A stretch of DNA of 64,000 nt from an uncultured Chloroflexota bacterium (GTDB lineage Bacteria > Chloroflexota > Anaerolineae > Anaerolineales > Anaerolineaceae), in assembly GCA_902774215.1 (NCBI GenBank), contig CACYHU010000050.1, positions 1 to 64,000 of the forward strand, in the 5' to 3' direction. Under the pieces are notes generated by a model, which saw only the letters and a list, made by a program, of their open reading frames with translations, was not told the origin of the DNA and did no database searches. Shown piece by piece: positions 2,221 to 11,879 of this stretch (positions are counted from its first letter, which is position 1; each line of letters starts with the position of its first letter). The translations under genes were made by a program, and so were the position numbers.

Positions 2221-2343
2221 TATGATCACATTTCATAAATATGGTGTCAGAAGTATTTATTGAAAATTTATTATTTATCTATTAGTAAATACAGGCTTAA
2301 TAAGTTTATATGTAACTAATACCGGTTCAGGAGATTGAGAAAT

Positions 2344-5300
2344 ATGGCGACTATTATTCAGCAATTTTTGAAACAGGCAGAAAAACAACCGGATCATGTG
2401 GCTGTACTGGACAGCCAGGGTGCGATCACTTATGATCGAATGAATAATCTTTCCGCATATATGGCAGAACGGATACTCGACCGCATCGGCGGAAAAGACA
2501 GGCGCGGACGCATCGCATTGCTTCTGTCCCGGACAAAGGCTTTCGTTGTTGCCCAGTTTGCCGTCCTGCGTGCCGGATGTGCTGTCGTACCCATTGACGC
2601 GGAATATCCCGCGGACCGGGTGCAGATGATCCTCGAGGATGTGGACTGTGCGTTATGCGTCACCACTGAAGCCTTCTCTGAAAAGGCAGCGGGCTTCCCG
2701 GTGCTGAAGATCGAAGAAATACAACCGGCAGACGGACATGATCCGGCAGGGGATAAAACACTGGATCTCTCTGATCCGGACGCGGAAGGTTATATCCTCT
2801 ATACTTCCGGCTCAACCGGAAAACCCAAGGGCGTGGTCCATCGTCAGGAATTGCTGAACTTTCCTGTGGAAGCGCTTCACGATATCATCAAGCCTTCAGG
2901 CAGTTCCCGAACACTGAACATTGCCGGTTTCAGCTTTATTGCCGGACTGGTGGATATTATGCCGATGCTGACCGGCGGGGGCAGTGTCTACATTGCCAAT
3001 GAGACCGAGCGGAAGAATATGGACATGATCTATAAGCTGTTCTCAAAGCGTCAGATCACCGGCATGTTTATTCCGCCCAAGATGTATGATGTTCTCCGGA
3101 AGCTCCACGGTCCTCTGCCGCTGGAATGGGCTATTCTCGGAGGTGAAAAAGTTCCGGAAGGGCTGAATGATCCGGGAACATATGAGGTTTATGGTGCAAG
3201 CGAGACCGGTAATGTTCTGATACATCCTCTGGGAGTCGGCGGACCTCTTTCCGTAGGGAAGCCGTGCATCAAAACCAGAGTTTATCTGGTGGATGAGGAC
3301 GGAAAACTGATCACCGAACCCGGAGCCATTGGAGAACTGTGCGTGAGCAGTCCCTGGCTGGCCTTGAAATACAATAATCTGCCGGAAGAAACTGCCCGGC
3401 GGTTTACAGACAATCCTTTTGAACCGGGGCAGCGCATGTATCATACGGGTGACTGTATGGCATGGGATGAAAACGGCAGTCTGGTTTTCCGCGGCAGGAA
3501 CGACCGGATGGTCAAGGTTCGCGGCTACCGTGTTGAATTGGACGAGATCGACCAGGTCATGCGCCGAAAGGAAGGGATCACTGAATCCGCCAGCGTCAAT
3601 GTCCTTGTTCATGGCGGAGATCTTATCTGCTGTTACTATACGGGTGAAGAGTTTCCTCCGGAAGAACTGAAGGCTTATGTCGGAACTTCCCTGCCGGATT
3701 ATATGGTGCCGGAATACTTCATCCATCTGGATACCATGCCCCGGAATGACCGGAACAAGGTAAATTATGGAGCGCTGAAGGCACTGGAAATCCGGACGGA
3801 CGAGGCGGAATATGAAGCGCCGAGGACGGAGACAGAGAAAAAGATCTGTGATGCATTTGCCGGTGTACTGGATATGTCAAAGGTCAGCGTTCTGGCGGAT
3901 TTCTTTGAATGCGGAGGTACTTCCCTGAGCGCTGCTGTGCTGATCAGCCGGCTGAGCGATGAGGGATTCACACTATCCTTCCAGGACGTTTCCGCTCATC
4001 CCACGCCCCGGGATCTGGCTGTATTTCTTGACTCGAAACGGGATCCATCGATCCCTGCGATGGACCGGGAATTTTATCCGCTGACCAGGACGCAGATGGG
4101 TATTTATCTTGAAAGCCTCACCGGCGGCAGCAAAGCAACATATACCGCTCCATACCTTACAAAAGCGGCAGCGGGAATCACAGCTGAACAGCTGATCGAT
4201 GCCGTGGTTCAGGTGTTTGATGCACACCCGGGGCTGAAGTATGTCATTCGCACAGATGAAAACGGTATGCCTGGAATGGTTCCCGTTCCGGATGCGAAGG
4301 TGGAAGTTCCCGTCTTTGAGGGAACCGAGGAAGGCCGGCTGGAATTTATGCAAAAGTTTATGCCGGTCGTTCCCATGATGGATCAGATCCTGGTTCATCC
4401 GGCGGTATACCGGACACCGGAGCGCTGTTATCTGGCGCTAAAGACACACCTGATCTGCCTTGACGGCACCGCTATCAGCATGTTTATCGCGGAAATGAAC
4501 CGGGCACTGGCCGGACAGACGCTGCTGGGAGAAGACTGCACGATCCAGCAGGCTGCCCTTTATGAGGAACGGCTGATGTTTGATGGTTCCCATGAAAAAG
4601 CCAAAGAATATTATTTGAACCTGTTCCGAAATATGGAAGATATTCCTGCCCTATCCGGCGACCTGAACGGTCCGCTGACACCCGGTGTGAGCCAGAACAT
4701 TCGCTATGAGCCCGGAACACTCACCGTGGAGCGCGTGAAGGAGTTCTGTGAGAAGATCCATATTTCTGAAAGCAGCTTCTTTATGGGCACCATGGCGCTG
4801 ATGCTCGGCAAATACCTGAACAGCAGGCATGTCTCCTTCTCCACCGTATATAATGGTCGTCCTCTGGCGGAAATGAGCCGGACGATTGGTACGCTGATCA
4901 AGCGGCTCCCCGTATATGGTGACCTGAGCAAAGATTTGCCCACAGAAGAATTCCTGCGGGGAATCAGCCGACAAATCTTCAGCAGCATGGCAAATGATAT
5001 TTATTCCTTTGATGAGGTGCTAAAGACCTGTCCTGTAAATGAGGATGTGGAATTCATCTATCAGGGCGACCTGTTCACAGACAACATGGGTAAATCAGCC
5101 GGAGAGGACCTGCTTCAGGGCGACAAATGGTTCATGGAGCATTATCATACCGGTATGGTGACCGGCTGCATGTCGATACAGTTCTTTGCAACAAACGGCC
5201 TGTACAACATGACCCTTGAATACCGGAATGAGAAATTCTCGAAAGAACAGGATCTGTTCACGACCGCGGAAGGATTACTCACCGCGGAAAAGATCAGTGA

Positions 5301-8300
5301 AGTCTCCCTGTTGACGGAAGCGGACAGAGAACAACTGAAAGCCTTCAACAATACCGCGGTTCCGATTGACTTCGTCCCCGTGCATGAACAGATCAACCGG
5401 CAGGCACAGCGGGACCCGGACAAAACTGCGGTTATCGCTGCCGGAAAGAAGCTCACTTTCCGTGAAATGGATCTGCTGAGCAATCAGCTGGCAAAGGTCC
5501 TGATCTCAAAAGGCGCCGGAAAAGATCAGATGATCGGTGTGCTCTTTGACCGGGAGGTCTGGGCATATGTGGCGGAAAATGCCATTCTGAAAGCAGGGGC
5601 TGCCTTCCTGCCGTTTATTCCGGAGTATCCGGATGCCCGGGTCGAATTTTGTCTGGAAGACGGAGCCTGTCCGATGCTGCTGACGACGGAAGAACAGAAG
5701 AAAGACCGTTCACTTACGCAAAACGGTTATCAGATACTGACGCTGGAAGAAGCATTCGGTGTATCCGCAATGGATGAGATCTGTCCGGATAAGCGGTATG
5801 CGGAGATGCCCGCGGTCACGGTCAGCCCGAATGATCTGGCTTACTGCATCTATACTTCCGGGTCTACCGGTCATCCCAAAGGCGTTATGATCGAACACCG
5901 GAATATTGCCAATTATGTAAACCGTAACGAAAAATCAATCGAGATCGTGCACTATGCAATGCCGGGACGTGTGAACCTCGCGCTGGCCTCATTCTCATTC
6001 GATGTTTCTGTGGTGGAACAGTTTGTACCGCTGTGCAACGGCAATACTGTGGTGATCGCCACGGAAAACGAGATCCATGATCCGGTACAGTTCGCACAGC
6101 TGGTGACAGATACCGGCGCGAATGGCATTACCTGTACGCCGACCTATCTGCTGAGCCTTCTGGATATTCCGGAGAGCCGGGAAGCTATCCGGCAGTTCAC
6201 CTTCTTCGATATCGGAGCCGAAGCTTTCCCCAGACAGCTGTACGATCGTCTGCGTGAACTGAGGGAGGACAGTGTTATCCTGAACGTTTACGGTCCGACG
6301 GAATGTACGATGGGCTGTTCCGCCGCGCTGATGACCGGGACGGAGCATGTGACAGTGGGACCGCCAATGGCCAATACAGTCTTTTATACTGCGGATCAGT
6401 TCGGGAATGAACTGCCGGTCGGGTTGAGAGGTGAACTCATCATCTGCGGTGACCAGGTGGGCAGAGGCTATGTGAATCTGCCTGATAAGACTGCCGCCGC
6501 TTTCTTCACACATAACGGTCTGCGGGCATATCACAGCGGAGACCTGGCTGCATGGACAGATAACGGAGAGGTCCGCATTTTCGGGCGAATTGACAACCAG
6601 ATCAAACTGCGCGGGTTCCGTATCGAACTTGATGAGATCGAAAAGGTTATGGCCGAATTTCCGGGGGTTTCAAGCAGCGCAGCTGCAGTGCGGAAAGTCT
6701 ATGGAACCGAATACCTGATCGGATACTACACCGTAAAGGAACCGGTCCAAGTTGACAGTTTAAAATTATATATGCAGGAAAAACTGCCGGAATACATGGT
6801 GCCCAGTGTCCTGATGAAAATAGCTGAGATGCCGATGACAAGCAACGGGAAGGTCAACCGCAAGGCGCTGCCGAATCCGGATCTGAAGGAACTCAAGGCT
6901 GAATATGTACCTCCGAAAACGGAGACAGAGAAGATCCTCTGCGCCGCCTTTGCCCGGACACTGAAATTGGAGGAAAACCAGGTCGGACTGATGGATGATT
7001 TCTTCGACCTGGGAGGTGATTCCCTGAAAGCCATGGTGGCAATGTCCGAGGCAAAGCTGGACGGACTGACGCCGGCGGATGTGTTCCAGCTGCGCACGCC
7101 GGGTGCCATCGCGAAAGCACTTGAAGAGAGAGCCGGCCAGGAGAGCCTGGATGAGCGGGAGGAAAAAGCCCGTCTGGTTCCCCACAGGCTTTCGCCGCTG
7201 CAGCAGCAGATGCTCGACTATCAGCTTTTTGAACCGGAATCCACCATGTGGAACAACATGTGTTTTCTGATCCGCTTTACGGACATGGATGCAGAAAAGC
7301 TTTGTGATGCGGTGAACCGTGCGCTGAAAAACCATCCTTCGCTTTCCGTTGCCTTTTTCATTGATAAGACGAGAGAATTTAAGCAGCAGTACAGACCCGG
7401 ATTGCTGCCGGAAGTGAAAGTGGAGGATATTGATCCGCAAACCGAGGATGCCCTTGGAGATACGCTGCTGAAGCCTTTCGACAGGATCCTGAATGCCTGT
7501 CTTTGCAAGGCCAGGGTTTTCCGGGGACGTAAGGGCTGTTATCTGTTTTTTGATGTCCATCATCTGCTTATGGACGGCAGCTCGTTCAGTGTTCTGCTTG
7601 GAGATATCGTGAACGCAATTTTCGGCAGGGAGCTTAAAAAGGACTATTACTTCGCGATCCTGGCAGAAACGGAAAGACGCAAGGATGAAGGAGCGTTTGA
7701 AAAGGACCGGGCTTATTTTTATAATTATTATGGCGATACGAAGGACTGGACAAATATCCTTCCTCCGGACCACGAGAGTGTCAATATCGGTCAGGCCAGC
7801 AGGGGACATCGTCTTGCCTTCAACGCGGAACAGGTGAAAGCCGCTGAGGAATATTGGGGCGTTTCCCACTCTGTTATGGCGATCACCTCGGGACTCCTGG
7901 TACTGTCCCGCTTCACGGGGAAAAAGCACGTGATGATCAACTGGATCTTTAACAATCGTCTTGCACCGGAAGCGGCAGGTGTGGTTGGTATGCTGATCCG
8001 CAATCTTCCGGCTGCCGCCCGGATGGAGGAGTTTAACTCCATACGGAACCTTCTCCATTCCGTGAAAGAGCAGGTTTCAGGCGGCATTGCTCACTGTGAC
8101 TATGATTTTATGATGGATACACTTCAGGCATTTAAGAACGACTGCATGGAGGTGAACCTCGAGATAGGCATTAACGGTGATGAATTGGACGAGCTGCCTT
8201 ACGAAAGGATCGAACTGAAAAATGATTACCTCGCCGCCGAGGCCCGGATGAATTTTGAACTGCTGGAAAATGAATACGGTGACGGTGGTTTTGATATCGA

Positions 8301-8409
8301 TTTAGAATGGGCGGAAGGGTTGTTTGATCAGAAAAAGATGGAGGCTTTCCATGAACAATACATAGAGATTCTGGAAAGTCTGGTGCTGAAGAGAGAGGAA
8401 TTACTCTGA
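2344..8409 (+). CDS. Nonribosomal peptide synthetase, A-T-C-A-T-C
   Basis: A roughly 2,021-residue assembly line. Order by motifs: A1 (residues ~1-490, nucleotide loop YTSGSTGKPKG near 155), T1 (GGTSLSA, phosphopantetheine Ser near 527), C1 (~575-985), A2 (~1010-1510, YTSGSTGHPKG near 1170), T2 (GGDSLKA, Ser near 1560), C2 (~1615-2021, HHLLMDG near 1739). No thioesterase, reductase or epimerase follows. A1 lacks the Asp that binds the substrate amino group, while A2 keeps it (FSFDVSVVE). C1 reads HLICLDG instead of HHxxxDG, so the second, catalytic His is Leu. An AGGAG at 2329-2333 sits 10 bases before the ATG at 2344; a TTG at 2335 is too close to be the start. It probably makes a small acylated or dipeptide-like product that C2 passes to a free amine or alcohol; the product is unknown. 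Confidence 0.95.
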   Translation: MATIIQQFLKQAEKQPDHVAVLDSQGAITYDRMNNLSAYMAERILDRIGGKDRRGRIALLLSRTKAFVVAQFAVLRAGCAVVPIDAEYPADRVQMILEDVDCALCVTTEAFSEKAAGFPVLKIEEIQPADGHDPAGDKTLDLSDPDAEGYILYTSGSTGKPKGVVHRQELLNFPVEALHDIIKPSGSSRTLNIAGFSFIAGLVDIMPMLTGGGSVYIANETERKNMDMIYKLFSKRQITGMFIPPKMYDVLRKLHGPLPLEWAILGGEKVPEGLNDPGTYEVYGASETGNVLIHPLGVGGPLSVGKPCIKTRVYLVDEDGKLITEPGAIGELCVSSPWLALKYNNLPEETARRFTDNPFEPGQRMYHTGDCMAWDENGSLVFRGRNDRMVKVRGYRVELDEIDQVMRRKEGITESASVNVLVHGGDLICCYYTGEEFPPEELKAYVGTSLPDYMVPEYFIHLDTMPRNDRNKVNYGALKALEIRTDEAEYEAPRTETEKKICDAFAGVLDMSKVSVLADFFECGGTSLSAAVLISRLSDEGFTLSFQDVSAHPTPRDLAVFLDSKRDPSIPAMDREFYPLTRTQMGIYLESLTGGSKATYTAPYLTKAAAGITAEQLIDAVVQVFDAHPGLKYVIRTDENGMPGMVPVPDAKVEVPVFEGTEEGRLEFMQKFMPVVPMMDQILVHPAVYRTPERCYLALKTHLICLDGTAISMFIAEMNRALAGQTLLGEDCTIQQAALYEERLMFDGSHEKAKEYYLNLFRNMEDIPALSGDLNGPLTPGVSQNIRYEPGTLTVERVKEFCEKIHISESSFFMGTMALMLGKYLNSRHVSFSTVYNGRPLAEMSRTIGTLIKRLPVYGDLSKDLPTEEFLRGISRQIFSSMANDIYSFDEVLKTCPVNEDVEFIYQGDLFTDNMGKSAGEDLLQGDKWFMEHYHTGMVTGCMSIQFFATNGLYNMTLEYRNEKFSKEQDLFTTAEGLLTAEKISEVSLLTEADREQLKAFNNTAVPIDFVPVHEQINRQAQRDPDKTAVIAAGKKLTFREMDLLSNQLAKVLISKGAGKDQMIGVLFDREVWAYVAENAILKAGAAFLPFIPEYPDARVEFCLEDGACPMLLTTEEQKKDRSLTQNGYQILTLEEAFGVSAMDEICPDKRYAEMPAVTVSPNDLAYCIYTSGSTGHPKGVMIEHRNIANYVNRNEKSIEIVHYAMPGRVNLALASFSFDVSVVEQFVPLCNGNTVVIATENEIHDPVQFAQLVTDTGANGITCTPTYLLSLLDIPESREAIRQFTFFDIGAEAFPRQLYDRLRELREDSVILNVYGPTECTMGCSAALMTGTEHVTVGPPMANTVFYTADQFGNELPVGLRGELIICGDQVGRGYVNLPDKTAAAFFTHNGLRAYHSGDLAAWTDNGEVRIFGRIDNQIKLRGFRIELDEIEKVMAEFPGVSSSAAAVRKVYGTEYLIGYYTVKEPVQVDSLKLYMQEKLPEYMVPSVLMKIAEMPMTSNGKVNRKALPNPDLKELKAEYVPPKTETEKILCAAFARTLKLEENQVGLMDDFFDLGGDSLKAMVAMSEAKLDGLTPADVFQLRTPGAIAKALEERAGQESLDEREEKARLVPHRLSPLQQQMLDYQLFEPESTMWNNMCFLIRFTDMDAEKLCDAVNRALKNHPSLSVAFFIDKTREFKQQYRPGLLPEVKVEDIDPQTEDALGDTLLKPFDRILNACLCKARVFRGRKGCYLFFDVHHLLMDGSSFSVLLGDIVNAIFGRELKKDYYFAILAETERRKDEGAFEKDRAYFYNYYGDTKDWTNILPPDHESVNIGQASRGHRLAFNAEQVKAAEEYWGVSHSVMAITSGLLVLSRFTGKKHVMINWIFNNRLAPEAAGVVGMLIRNLPAAARMEEFNSIRNLLHSVKEQVSGGIAHCDYDFMMDTLQAFKNDCMEVNLEIGINGDELDELPYERIELKNDYLAAEARMNFELLENEYGDGGFDIDLEWAEGLFDQKKMEAFHEQYIEILESLVLKREELL

Positions 8410-8445: not shown

Positions 8446-9432
8446 ATGAGAAGATTTGCGGTTTTTATCCTTTTCCTTGTATTGTTTATTGTTTTAACTG
8501 TCCCCGTTATGGCGGAATGTACGGAAAAGTTGTCGGTAGATGAGCGTTCACTGACCGAATCGCAGAAATGGTGGGATACTGAAATGGGTTTGTATATCCA
8601 CTTATGGGATCCCTTTACGCTTGTTGAACTGCCGGATCAGCACTGGTTCAAAGTATTTGAGCTGCCCGGAAATGTATATGCGCTCTTTGAATACAAACAG
8701 AGTGAGCTTGTTATTTCCTATCTGATTCCGGGAGAAAAGTCAGCACTGCTTTGGGATACAGGGCTCGGGATCGATAATATCCGCAAATGTGCGGAAGAAT
8801 TGACAGAACTTCCGATCATCGTACTGAATTCGCACTCTCACCCTTATCATATCGGGGGAAATTCACTGTTTGACACGGTCATGTGCTATGATATCGATTC
8901 AGCAATTGAAGAGCTGACACTGGGCATTTCCCATGAAAAAACGGTGGAGTATTTTCCGCCGGACGCGTTCATCGATCCGCCAGAAGATTTTTCCCCGGAT
9001 GATTATTCGATCGTAGGAAAAGCGCCCACAGCGACTGTGGAGGATGGTCAGATCATTGATCTGGGGAACAGATATCTGGAGGTGTTCTATACACCCGGTC
9101 ATGACGACAATTCCATCATGCTGATCGACGAAGAAAACAGATTGGTGTTTACCGGAGATACATGGTATCCCGGTCCGTTGTATGCTTTTCTGAAACATTC
9201 CTCTTTTTCCGATTATGTGGAAAGCATGAAAATAATCAAAAACGTCATAGAGCAAAGAAATATCCAATGGATCTATGGCTCCCATAACGGGATCGTACCC
9301 GGTACGGAGCTCTTCTTTGAGACGGCAGCTTTTCTTGAAGATGTTCAGGACGGAGACTTTTATAATTACACCATAGAGGACGATCATCTGGTTTACAGCA
9401 TGGATGATTTCATCACTGTAGAGCTTCCGTAG
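8446..9432 (+). CDS. Secreted metallo-beta-lactamase-fold hydrolase with altered metal motif
   Basis: A 328-residue protein with a signal peptide (hydrophobic core residues 4-22, likely cut after VMA). Metallo-beta-lactamase-fold landmarks follow: the first metal motif reads HSHPYHIGG, the second His is in YTPGHDDN, the bridging Asp in TGDTW and the last His in YGSHNG. The usual motif is HxHxDH, but the Asp is Tyr here, so the second zinc site is probably changed or lost. It starts 37 bases after the synthetase stop and is probably co-transcribed. Being exported, it may process or destroy the peptide product outside the cell, or protect the producer. It is not a type II thioesterase because it carries an export signal. 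The substrate is unknown. Confidence 0.85.
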   Translation: MRRFAVFILFLVLFIVLTVPVMAECTEKLSVDERSLTESQKWWDTEMGLYIHLWDPFTLVELPDQHWFKVFELPGNVYALFEYKQSELVISYLIPGEKSALLWDTGLGIDNIRKCAEELTELPIIVLNSHSHPYHIGGNSLFDTVMCYDIDSAIEELTLGISHEKTVEYFPPDAFIDPPEDFSPDDYSIVGKAPTATVEDGQIIDLGNRYLEVFYTPGHDDNSIMLIDEENRLVFTGDTWYPGPLYAFLKHSSFSDYVESMKIIKNVIEQRNIQWIYGSHNGIVPGTELFFETAAFLEDVQDGDFYNYTIEDDHLVYSMDDFITVELP

Positions 9433-9481: not shown

Positions 9482-10126
9482 ATGGAAATCATGCCGGTCT
9501 ATGCGATCTCTGCGGAAACCGTCCAGCAGCTGGATCAGACACATCTTCTCCGGCGTATGCCGGAGCGGATGAGGCAGGCTGAAAAATACAGGTTCGAAAA
9601 AGACCGCCTGCTGTGTATCGGTGGGGGTATTTTGATGAAGCATGTCGTCGGGATCCGGGATGAGTCTGAGATCCGTCAGGGTCAATATGGAAAACCCTAT
9701 GCTACCGGATATCCCGGTTTTAATTTATCCCACAGCGGCGAGTGGTGTATTCTTTCAAAAGGAGACTGCGAGATTGGTGTGGACATCGAAATAATCGATG
9801 AAAAGAACCTGTCTGCTGCCTCCGCAGTTTATACCCCGCGTGAGCTGAACTGGATGAATGATGATCTGCTTGAACGGTTTTATCAGCTTTGGACATGGAA
9901 GGAGAGCCTGATTAAGGCTCTCGGGACAGGCATGTCCCTGGAACCGAAAACTTTTACCGTACTGCCTTTCATAGAGGGTCAGCCTGTTCATATGTATGGA
10001 AAGTCATGGTTCCCGGCTTCGGGCTCTATCGCCGGATATCGTTTCAGCGTGTGCGCCTCTGCTCCGGTCGGCAGCCTGAAATGGATTGAATTGCGTATAA
10101 CCGATCTTAAAAACAGCTTGCTGTAA
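9482..10126 (+). CDS. Sfp-type 4'-phosphopantetheinyl transferase
   Basis: A 214-residue protein, close to the size of Sfp. It shows the family motifs in order: KPYATGYPGFNLSHS, the Mg-binding GVDIE near residue 100, and the WTWKESLIKALGTG motif near residue 140. It moves phosphopantetheine from coenzyme A onto the Ser of carrier domains and should activate T1 and T2 of the synthetase that begins at 2344. It lies 49 bases after the hydrolase on the same strand and is probably the last gene of this operon. An AGGGA sits about ten bases before the ATG. A role for fatty acid synthase carrier protein is possible but the size and location favour the peptide locus. Confidence 0.93.
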   Translation: MEIMPVYAISAETVQQLDQTHLLRRMPERMRQAEKYRFEKDRLLCIGGGILMKHVVGIRDESEIRQGQYGKPYATGYPGFNLSHSGEWCILSKGDCEIGVDIEIIDEKNLSAASAVYTPRELNWMNDDLLERFYQLWTWKESLIKALGTGMSLEPKTFTVLPFIEGQPVHMYGKSWFPASGSIAGYRFSVCASAPVGSLKWIELRITDLKNSLL

Positions 10127-10475: not shown

Positions 10476-10478
10476 ATG

Positions 10479-11879
10479 ATGAAAAGAAAATTGTTATGTC
10501 TTTTTTCCGTCTTATTGGCCGTCCTGAATGTGGTCAGCCTGGCGGCGGCAGCGGCGGATACCGCTGGAAATGTGTTTCTCAGTGACAGTGCTCCTGTGGC
10601 GCAGAGCGTGGAAAGGGATCTCTATTGGACCGGCGGCAGCCGTACCTTCAATGGATACAAGATCGGGAAAAGCCTGCTCGCCGCAGGGTGGGATATTACG
10701 ATCAACAATTCATCTGTCGGCGGCAGTCTGCGGGCAGGGGCGTATTCCATTGTGATGAACGGTGTGGAAGTGGAGGATAACATCAATGCCGCGGCTATGG
10801 AACTCAAGCTGTCCGATGTAGAAACGTCCGGTGCGTATCTCTACGGGAATGCGGTGAACTTCAGCGGTTCCGCGGACTATTTGCTCATTTCTGCCGGTAA
10901 CGTTACGCTTGACGGCAAGATCAGCGGCAATGCGGAAATTTACGGTAACCGTGTGGTCCTGGGCGATCATCTGAGGGTGGAAGGTACGCTGACAGTTCAT
11001 TCCGACAAGAAGCCGAATGTTCCTTCCGGCGCGCAGATCGGGACGCTGAATTTTGTTGAATCAAAATCCAGCGGCAAAATCGGAACAAATCCGTTTAAAC
11101 TGCCTGTACAGACAAGTCCGACAAAAGCGCCTGTTCAGGCCGTTCCCACAAAAGCCCCCGTTAAGACTGATCCTACAACAGCGCCCGCTCAGACCAATCC
11201 CACAGCGGTTCCTGCCAAGACCGGTACCACGACGGATAATGTTCCTGTTCAGACAGATACCACGGCAGATAATGTTCCTACTCAGACCGGTACGGTAACG
11301 GATAATGCTTCTGTCCAGGCTGATACCACCACAGATAACGCTCCTGCACAGAGTGAAGTCACCACTGAAGCAGCTCCTGCGGAAAAACCCGCAGACTCAC
11401 GTGTCAAAGATATTTTATTTGGTGTGCTTGGTGCATTACTGCTGGGTACAGTAATCTATCTGCTGCTGGGCGGAAAAGAGCTCCGCAGATCCGGTATGAT
11501 GCTGAAAGAACGGACGATCCCGATGCTGTGCACCGGATTCGCTTCACTGTTTGTGGTTCCCGGGGTTTTGCTGATCCTGTTGCTTTCCGGGTTCGGCGGG
11601 CGAAGTGCGGGACTGCTGGCAATGCTGTTTGTGATGGTTTGCATTTATTGCGTGACTTATACCGGGGTCAGTCTGGCAAATACCCTGCTGCCGCGGATCG
11701 CAAAAATCCGTGTGCTGAAAAATTCATGGGTCTGCTCAATGATCGGCGCGCTGTTGTTCTGGCTGCTGCGGCAGATCCCCGGCTTCGGTATCGTCCTGAT
11801 GATCTTTTCGATTATTTATACGATGGGGTATTTCCTTCAGACCATCTACCTGCGCATGAAGGCAGAGAAACGTCGTTAA
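10479..11879 (+). CDS. Exported beta-helix (bactofilin-like) protein with Thr/Pro repeats and C-terminal membrane domain
   Basis: About 466 residues. A signal peptide (residues 1-25, cut near AAAADTAG) leads to a beta-rich region (~35-195) with short alternating Gly/Asn strands such as SGNAEIYGNRVVLGDH, typical of polymer-forming bactofilin-like beta-helices. Residues ~205-310 are nine Thr/Pro/Ala repeats of 9 to 11 residues (types QTxPTxAP and QTDTTADNVP). The C-terminus holds about four membrane helices. I infer an envelope protein whose outer beta-helix is held off the membrane by a flexible stalk. AAGGGGAG ends five bases before the second of two adjacent ATGs, so the start at 10479 is preferred over 10476. 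Function not known; link to the peptide locus is unproven. Confidence 0.75.
   Translation: MKRKLLCLFSVLLAVLNVVSLAAAAADTAGNVFLSDSAPVAQSVERDLYWTGGSRTFNGYKIGKSLLAAGWDITINNSSVGGSLRAGAYSIVMNGVEVEDNINAAAMELKLSDVETSGAYLYGNAVNFSGSADYLLISAGNVTLDGKISGNAEIYGNRVVLGDHLRVEGTLTVHSDKKPNVPSGAQIGTLNFVESKSSGKIGTNPFKLPVQTSPTKAPVQAVPTKAPVKTDPTTAPAQTNPTAVPAKTGTTTDNVPVQTDTTADNVPTQTGTVTDNASVQADTTTDNAPAQSEVTTEAAPAEKPADSRVKDILFGVLGALLLGTVIYLLLGGKELRRSGMMLKERTIPMLCTGFASLFVVPGVLLILLLSGFGGRSAGLLAMLFVMVCIYCVTYTGVSLANTLLPRIAKIRVLKNSWVCSMIGALLFWLLRQIPGFGIVLMIFSIIYTMGYFLQTIYLRMKAEKRR

Follow-up and report, generated by a model that had tools for sequence, protein, structure and literature searches.

At the beginning of the analyzed window, i.e., the whole 64,000-nucleotide stretch of DNA, five genes follow one another on the forward strand, encoding a membrane protein (23–793), a MATE-family exporter (859–2220), a two-module nonribosomal peptide synthetase (2335–8409), an MBL-fold protein (8446–9432) and a 4′-phosphopantetheinyl transferase (PPTase; 9482–10126). 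The membrane protein (256 aa, recognized by eye, without a Pfam family) is the product of the first gene of the contig, and since base 1 of the window is the end of this contig, further upstream genes may be missing. The exporter was recognized by PF01554 (4.4e-34) and by TIGR00797 (above its cut-off), and the PPTase, which would activate the synthetase, by PF01648 (1.6e-13). The MBL-fold gene is separated by 36 bases from the synthetase gene upstream and by 49 bases from the PPTase gene, and we infer that it is co-expressed with the peptide-synthetase operon.

The synthetase (2024 aa) gave two Pfam matches each for the AMP-binding, PP-binding and Condensation domains, and its domain order appears to read A-T-C-A-T-C. 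Its C-terminal domain is a Condensation domain, and no Pfam match to a thioesterase or reductase domain was found within 2335–8409. The first adenylation domain, inspected by eye, seems to lack the usual substrate-pocket Asp, hinting that the starter is perhaps no alpha-amino acid. A second large synthetase is encoded in the same genome at G000:C8:41249-45913; its open frame has 2957 aa, and its identity with the first synthetase over the match is 31%. Downstream of the PPTase gene, at 10476–11879, lies a gene for a 467-aa protein without a Pfam match, in which, as judged by eye, a bactofilin-like N-terminal part is followed by Pro/Thr-rich repeats and then by a membrane part at the other end. 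Within the window, neither Rfam families (gathering threshold) nor tRNA genes were found, PADLOC gave no match to anti-phage defence at 0.01, and the promoter and terminator scan found 15 and 15 signals versus means of 13.5 and 10.5 in shuffled sequences.

The MBL-fold gene (8446–9432, forward strand) is an open reading frame of 328 codons with an ATG start and no internal stops, and its product matches Lactamase_B (PF00753) with 51 bits versus a cut-off of 22.7. The N-terminus of this protein, MRRFAVFILFLVLFIVLTVPVMA, was recognized by eye as a Sec-type signal peptide (residues 1–23, 8446–8514), probably cut between VMA and EC, and residues 2–25 form a helix in the structural model. Residues 128–139 read N-S-H-S-H-P-Y-H-I-G-G-N, i.e., the motif H130-S-H132-P-Y134-H135 (8833–8850) stands in the place of HxHxDH, and Tyr134 is encoded by TAT (8845–8847), a single base away from an Asp codon. 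All the other ligand positions are retained: H130, H132 and H135 of the motif, H219 of TPGH (metal ligand position, 9100–9102), D238 of TGD (bridging ligand position, 9157–9159) and H280 of GSHN (second-metal ligand position, 9283–9285). The protein is thus still a homologue within the MBL-fold superfamily, but with an incomplete catalytic motif. The sequence-only reading of this DNA, which had described an exported MBL-fold protein next to a peptide synthetase, with Asp replaced by Tyr in the metal motif and the other ligands kept, was correct in this. With these ligands present, a first metal site at the least is to be expected, and the second one presumably retains three of the four protein ligands of a glyoxalase II-like site.

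An AlphaFold2 model was calculated from an alignment of 44 sequences, i.e., the window protein and 43 relatives drawn from the 80 loci described below (mean pLDDT of 89.8). The predicted model has the alpha-beta/beta-alpha fold, and both Foldseek and VIA-align placed it within the MBL fold; in VIA-align, many class B enzymes reached Z values of about 21, and the match to 3fcz_A had a Z of 21.5 and an rmsd of 2.5 over 207 aligned residues. The D120S laboratory mutant of BcII (2uyx) was also among the structure matches. The leading profile matches to solved proteins were varied (2zo4, YcbL 2xf4, LACTB2 4ad9), with PqsE further down. The protein shares with the lactonase/glyoxalase II-like part of PF00753 the fold, the domain score, the TPGH and TGD motifs, the final His and the DTG motif, but differs from it by Tyr in the place of Asp, by the signal peptide and by an extra N-terminal region.

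Several narrower assignments were rejected. The core model of class B beta-lactamases (NF012229) gave 26 bits versus a cut-off of 100, glyoxalase II (GloB, TIGR03413) gave 28.7 versus 200.8, and the models of SoxH-related PQQ metallohydrolases (PQQ-relay; TIGR04558 and TIGR04559) gave 40.2 and 37.3 bits versus cut-offs of 300 and 280. The SolJ model NF041804 was present neither among the five families matched to an E-value of 0.001 nor among the four matched to 1e-5; six of the 44 aligned proteins matched it, the window protein not being one of them. In view of its apparent export signal, the protein was also discarded as an in-trans thioesterase for the synthetase.

The residue at the place of Tyr134 was then read in relatives. 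The genome collection was scanned with two peptide patterns, one allowing Asp or Tyr at the motif place and the other without the motif, so that copies with Tyr were not shut out. At least 278 loci were confirmed, and within the best 80 of them Asp was found in 79 and His in one, L079 (7974–8891; assembly titled Symbiobacterium thermophilum), whose motif HADYHH is another natural departure from HxHxDH. Asp was also present in all 29 additional rows (28 distinct proteins) from other genomes, in 6/6 proteins of another set and, the window row aside, in every row of weaker relatives whose alignment reaches the motif. Seven further loci, without a tblastn match at the threshold used for these weaker relatives, were left out of the counts; five of them, read later, all have Asp, while L031 and L032, like L003 and L028, have no motif readable by the pattern. 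The sets read here can overlap in species and should not be taken as independent of each other. The genome of the window itself has 16 matches to PF00753, 15 of them with a pattern-readable motif, and Asp is found in 14, the window gene being the fifteenth.

It should be stressed that the closest intact relatives are only about 30–41% identical to the window protein over the aligned part, with short stretches of 44–60 residues reaching 43–44%. No intact relative above approximately 41% identity was found in the set of relatives, in the genus, in the family, in 21 genomes of the family of G298, or in evenly drawn, overlapping samples of the order, class and phylum (400, 396, and 400 genomes, respectively), and single-protein scans of viral contigs and genome contigs gave no closer orthologues. 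Among plasmid records, 13 had a match, with identity not exceeding 39% among the 10 matches listed. The literature search brought up no recognizable report of Tyr naturally replacing this Asp, which is no proof of absence, and among the relatives read there was no other synthetase locus that carries a copy with Tyr. The sequence-only reading had itself named relatives with the normal Asp as pointing to a local mutation; the relatives read, distant as they are (about 30–41% identity), have Asp and, once, His, which by that criterion points to a local change. As Tyr occurs in no relative examined, it is better described as a local oddity of one gene than as the mark of a new enzyme class. The substitution, as seen in this one sequence, is real and most likely a local change, and closer orthologues may include a small clade with a conserved Tyr.

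The departure does not result from noise of a poor alignment, since column 134 of the 44-sequence alignment is Asp in 42 of the 43 relatives. H219, D238 and H280 are each present in all 43, and none of the six ligand positions kept by the window protein is missing from more than one of them, in agreement with the earlier claim that the other ligands are retained. Of 25 columns with conservation in 80% or more of the relatives, 22 are kept in the window protein, which departs at Y134, N222, and V234; amongst the 13 conserved in at least 41 of the 43, it keeps 12 and departs at Y134 only, which argues against general or long decay. In a tree reported with long-branch warnings, its end branch is 1.67 versus a median of 0.72, which fits relaxed constraint, and together with L073, L074, L075, L076, L080, L094, L098, L137, L044, and L049 it forms a group (11 rows) with weak resolution.

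The only near orthologue was found in another genome of the same genus (G013, L037:12111-13106), where a remnant of the MBL-fold gene is followed by a PPTase gene, in the same order as in the window. The remnant is truncated and has an internal stop, and it matches residues 223–328 with 56% identity, while the PPTase is 77% identical to that of the window. Neither the front of the MBL-fold gene, including the motif, nor a synthetase match was found in G013, and at 1e-100 the synthetase was matched only in the window's genome among 147 genomes of the family. Comparison of the remnant with the window gene over 98 codons gave point estimates of 0.27 for dN, 0.43 for dS, and 0.63 for dN/dS; the corresponding values for the PPTase pair (213 codons) were 0.13, 0.40, and 0.33. 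A ratio below one despite one broken line hints, in this small sample, at some constraint in the line of the window. To judge from these sequences, the G013 locus is a probable trace of operon loss, in which a single deletion may have removed both the synthetase gene and the 5′ part of the MBL-fold gene. The MBL-fold gene is broken where the synthetase match is absent, as one would expect if its job depended on the synthetase.

These data bear on the explanation in which a gene for a normal two-metal hydrolase was recently inactivated by the mutation to Tyr134, or in which the draft has a wrong base at this place. We hold this to be a real possibility, but less likely than not. In its favor are the single base separating the Tyr codon from an Asp codon, the strong prevalence of Asp (79/80 of the best loci, 28/28 distinct proteins, 6/6, and 14/15 of the PF00753 genes of the same genome), the broken state of the sole near orthologue and the nature of the assembly, a draft of 240 contigs that is 91% complete and 4% contaminated. 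On the other hand, the frame is open over 328 codons, the other positions conserved in at least 41 of the 43 relatives are kept and no further sign of decay is visible, although a recent event would likewise leave the rest of the gene intact.

The connection of the protein with the product of the synthetase was examined through the neighborhoods of relatives. Flanks of up to 8 kb around the 80 relatives were searched at 1e-5 for matches to the synthetase, the MATE exporter and the PPTase of the window, and matches were found in two of them, i.e., a weak synthetase match in L135 and matches to PPTase and MATE in L136; in this set, none of the relatives was seen to adjoin a synthetase comparable with that of the window. 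In L136 (Lachnospiraceae bacterium NK4A144, L136:8007-9396), an MBL-fold gene with the normal Asp and without an evident signal peptide overlaps the PPTase gene, and two MATE-matching genes follow, which makes it a second MBL-PPTase-MATE grouping, with no synthetase match in its flanks; it lies downstream of genes that, by eye, are phosphate butyryltransferase- and butyrate kinase-like. The proteins of L073, L074, and L080 (Acidobacteriota, Gemmatimonadota, and Bacteroidota; best-segment identities of 30%, 36%, and 31%, respectively) resemble the window protein in that, by eye, their N-terminus is of the export type and the domain is preceded by a W/C-rich stretch, but they differ in having the normal HxHxDH, a lipobox-like Cys (by eye) and no synthetase match in the flanks. 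As such exported relatives occur without a synthetase, and none was found near a comparable one, it is a single operon that connects the protein with the product.

Two published clusters offer partial parallels. In the solanimycin cluster, an MBL-fold hydrolase is encoded together with synthetases and a MATE exporter (SolJ, SolL), and SolJ is similar in setting to the window protein, but it has 241 aa and the sol cluster includes PKS and thioesterase parts (PMC9765074). Deletion of solJ left bioactivity unchanged, and solJ is missing from several sol clusters (PMC9765074), which suggests that genes of this kind can be dispensable. ThnS of the thienamycin cluster, an MBL-fold enzyme within a biosynthetic cluster, is a proposed antidote, but it is UlaG-like and its HxHxDH is conserved (PMC8115136). 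A role of the window protein in processing of the product or in resistance to it is a guess.

It is somewhat unlikely, and compatible with the other readings, that the protein is an exported hydrolase with a general role (e.g., lactone or thioester clean-up) that came into the operon by chance. The exported-type relatives L073, L074, and L080, with no synthetase match in their flanks, speak for such a passenger, as do L076 and L098 (Bacillota), which adjoin genes for a family 3 solute-binding protein, a permease and an ABC ATPase. The tight spacing of the gene between those of the synthetase and the PPTase, and the MBL-PPTase order retained in G013, speak against it.

Regarding the consequences of the substitution, Asp120 of class B enzymes ligates zinc 2, and the Asp120Asn mutant of BcII loses more than 100-fold of its activity with the binding of the second zinc unimpaired (PMC2422870). 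The BcII Asp120 mutants (including 2uyx) are comparable with the window protein in that the same motif position is changed and the other ligands are kept, but they were made in the laboratory and within a class B1 site with Cys221. Persulfide dioxygenases, which have the same fold, bind one iron by two His and one Asp; their motif Asp and third His are described as an ionic pair and are not listed as ligands, and in type III enzymes Phe or Tyr replaces the third motif His (PMC6060420). Positions corresponding to such a set of two His and one Asp are present in the window protein. Taken together, the BcII and dioxygenase precedents suggest metal binding that is reduced or altered rather than absent.

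The same precedents allow a working variant, in which Tyr134 would ligate or shield the second site and give a mononuclear enzyme comparable with persulfide dioxygenases. We consider it improbable. All the other ligands are kept, mononuclear dioxygenases and the Phe/Tyr exchange of their type III do exist in this fold (PMC6060420), and the long branch could reflect adaptive change; yet the long branch fits relaxed constraint equally, the exchange in the dioxygenases affects the neighboring residue and not the Asp, and no second sequence with Tyr was found among the relatives read. It is very doubtful, more specifically, that Tyr134 is functional and conserved in a small clade, in an enzyme with one metal or a tyrosinate ligand that would serve the exported product of this operon in particular.

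The best reading is that the peptide-synthetase operon includes a gene for an exported MBL-fold protein of an ordinary kind, changed at the second site in this lineage. In its full form, i.e., an exported metallohydrolase-fold protein of the synthetase operon that underwent the Asp to Tyr change in its lineage, still binds metal and acts on or in relation to the product, this explanation has, in our view, about an even chance of being correct. The protein would belong to the broad lactonase/glyoxalase II-like part of PF00753 and would be expressed together with the exporter, the synthetase and the activator of its carrier proteins. As far as the relatives show, the motif Asp would have become Tyr in the lineage of the window. 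The first metal site (H130, H132, and H219, with D238) appears intact and the second would retain H135, D238, and H280, so metal is most likely still bound. Activity, substrate and metal content being deduced, the protein would most likely act extracellularly as a hydrolase of low or altered activity, and its likeliest job, suggested by gene order and the export signal only, would be trimming or detoxifying the exported product.

The locus is of interest as a product locus in its own right, with a two-module synthetase that has no recognized release domain. Should the Tyr prove functional, nature would be able to exchange even the Asp that is most conserved in the MBL fold with the rest of the site unchanged, which would offer a way to study the transition from two-metal hydrolases to one-metal enzymes. 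Should it be local, to which the relatives point, the case is a caution that one deviating codon in one assembly does not make a new family.
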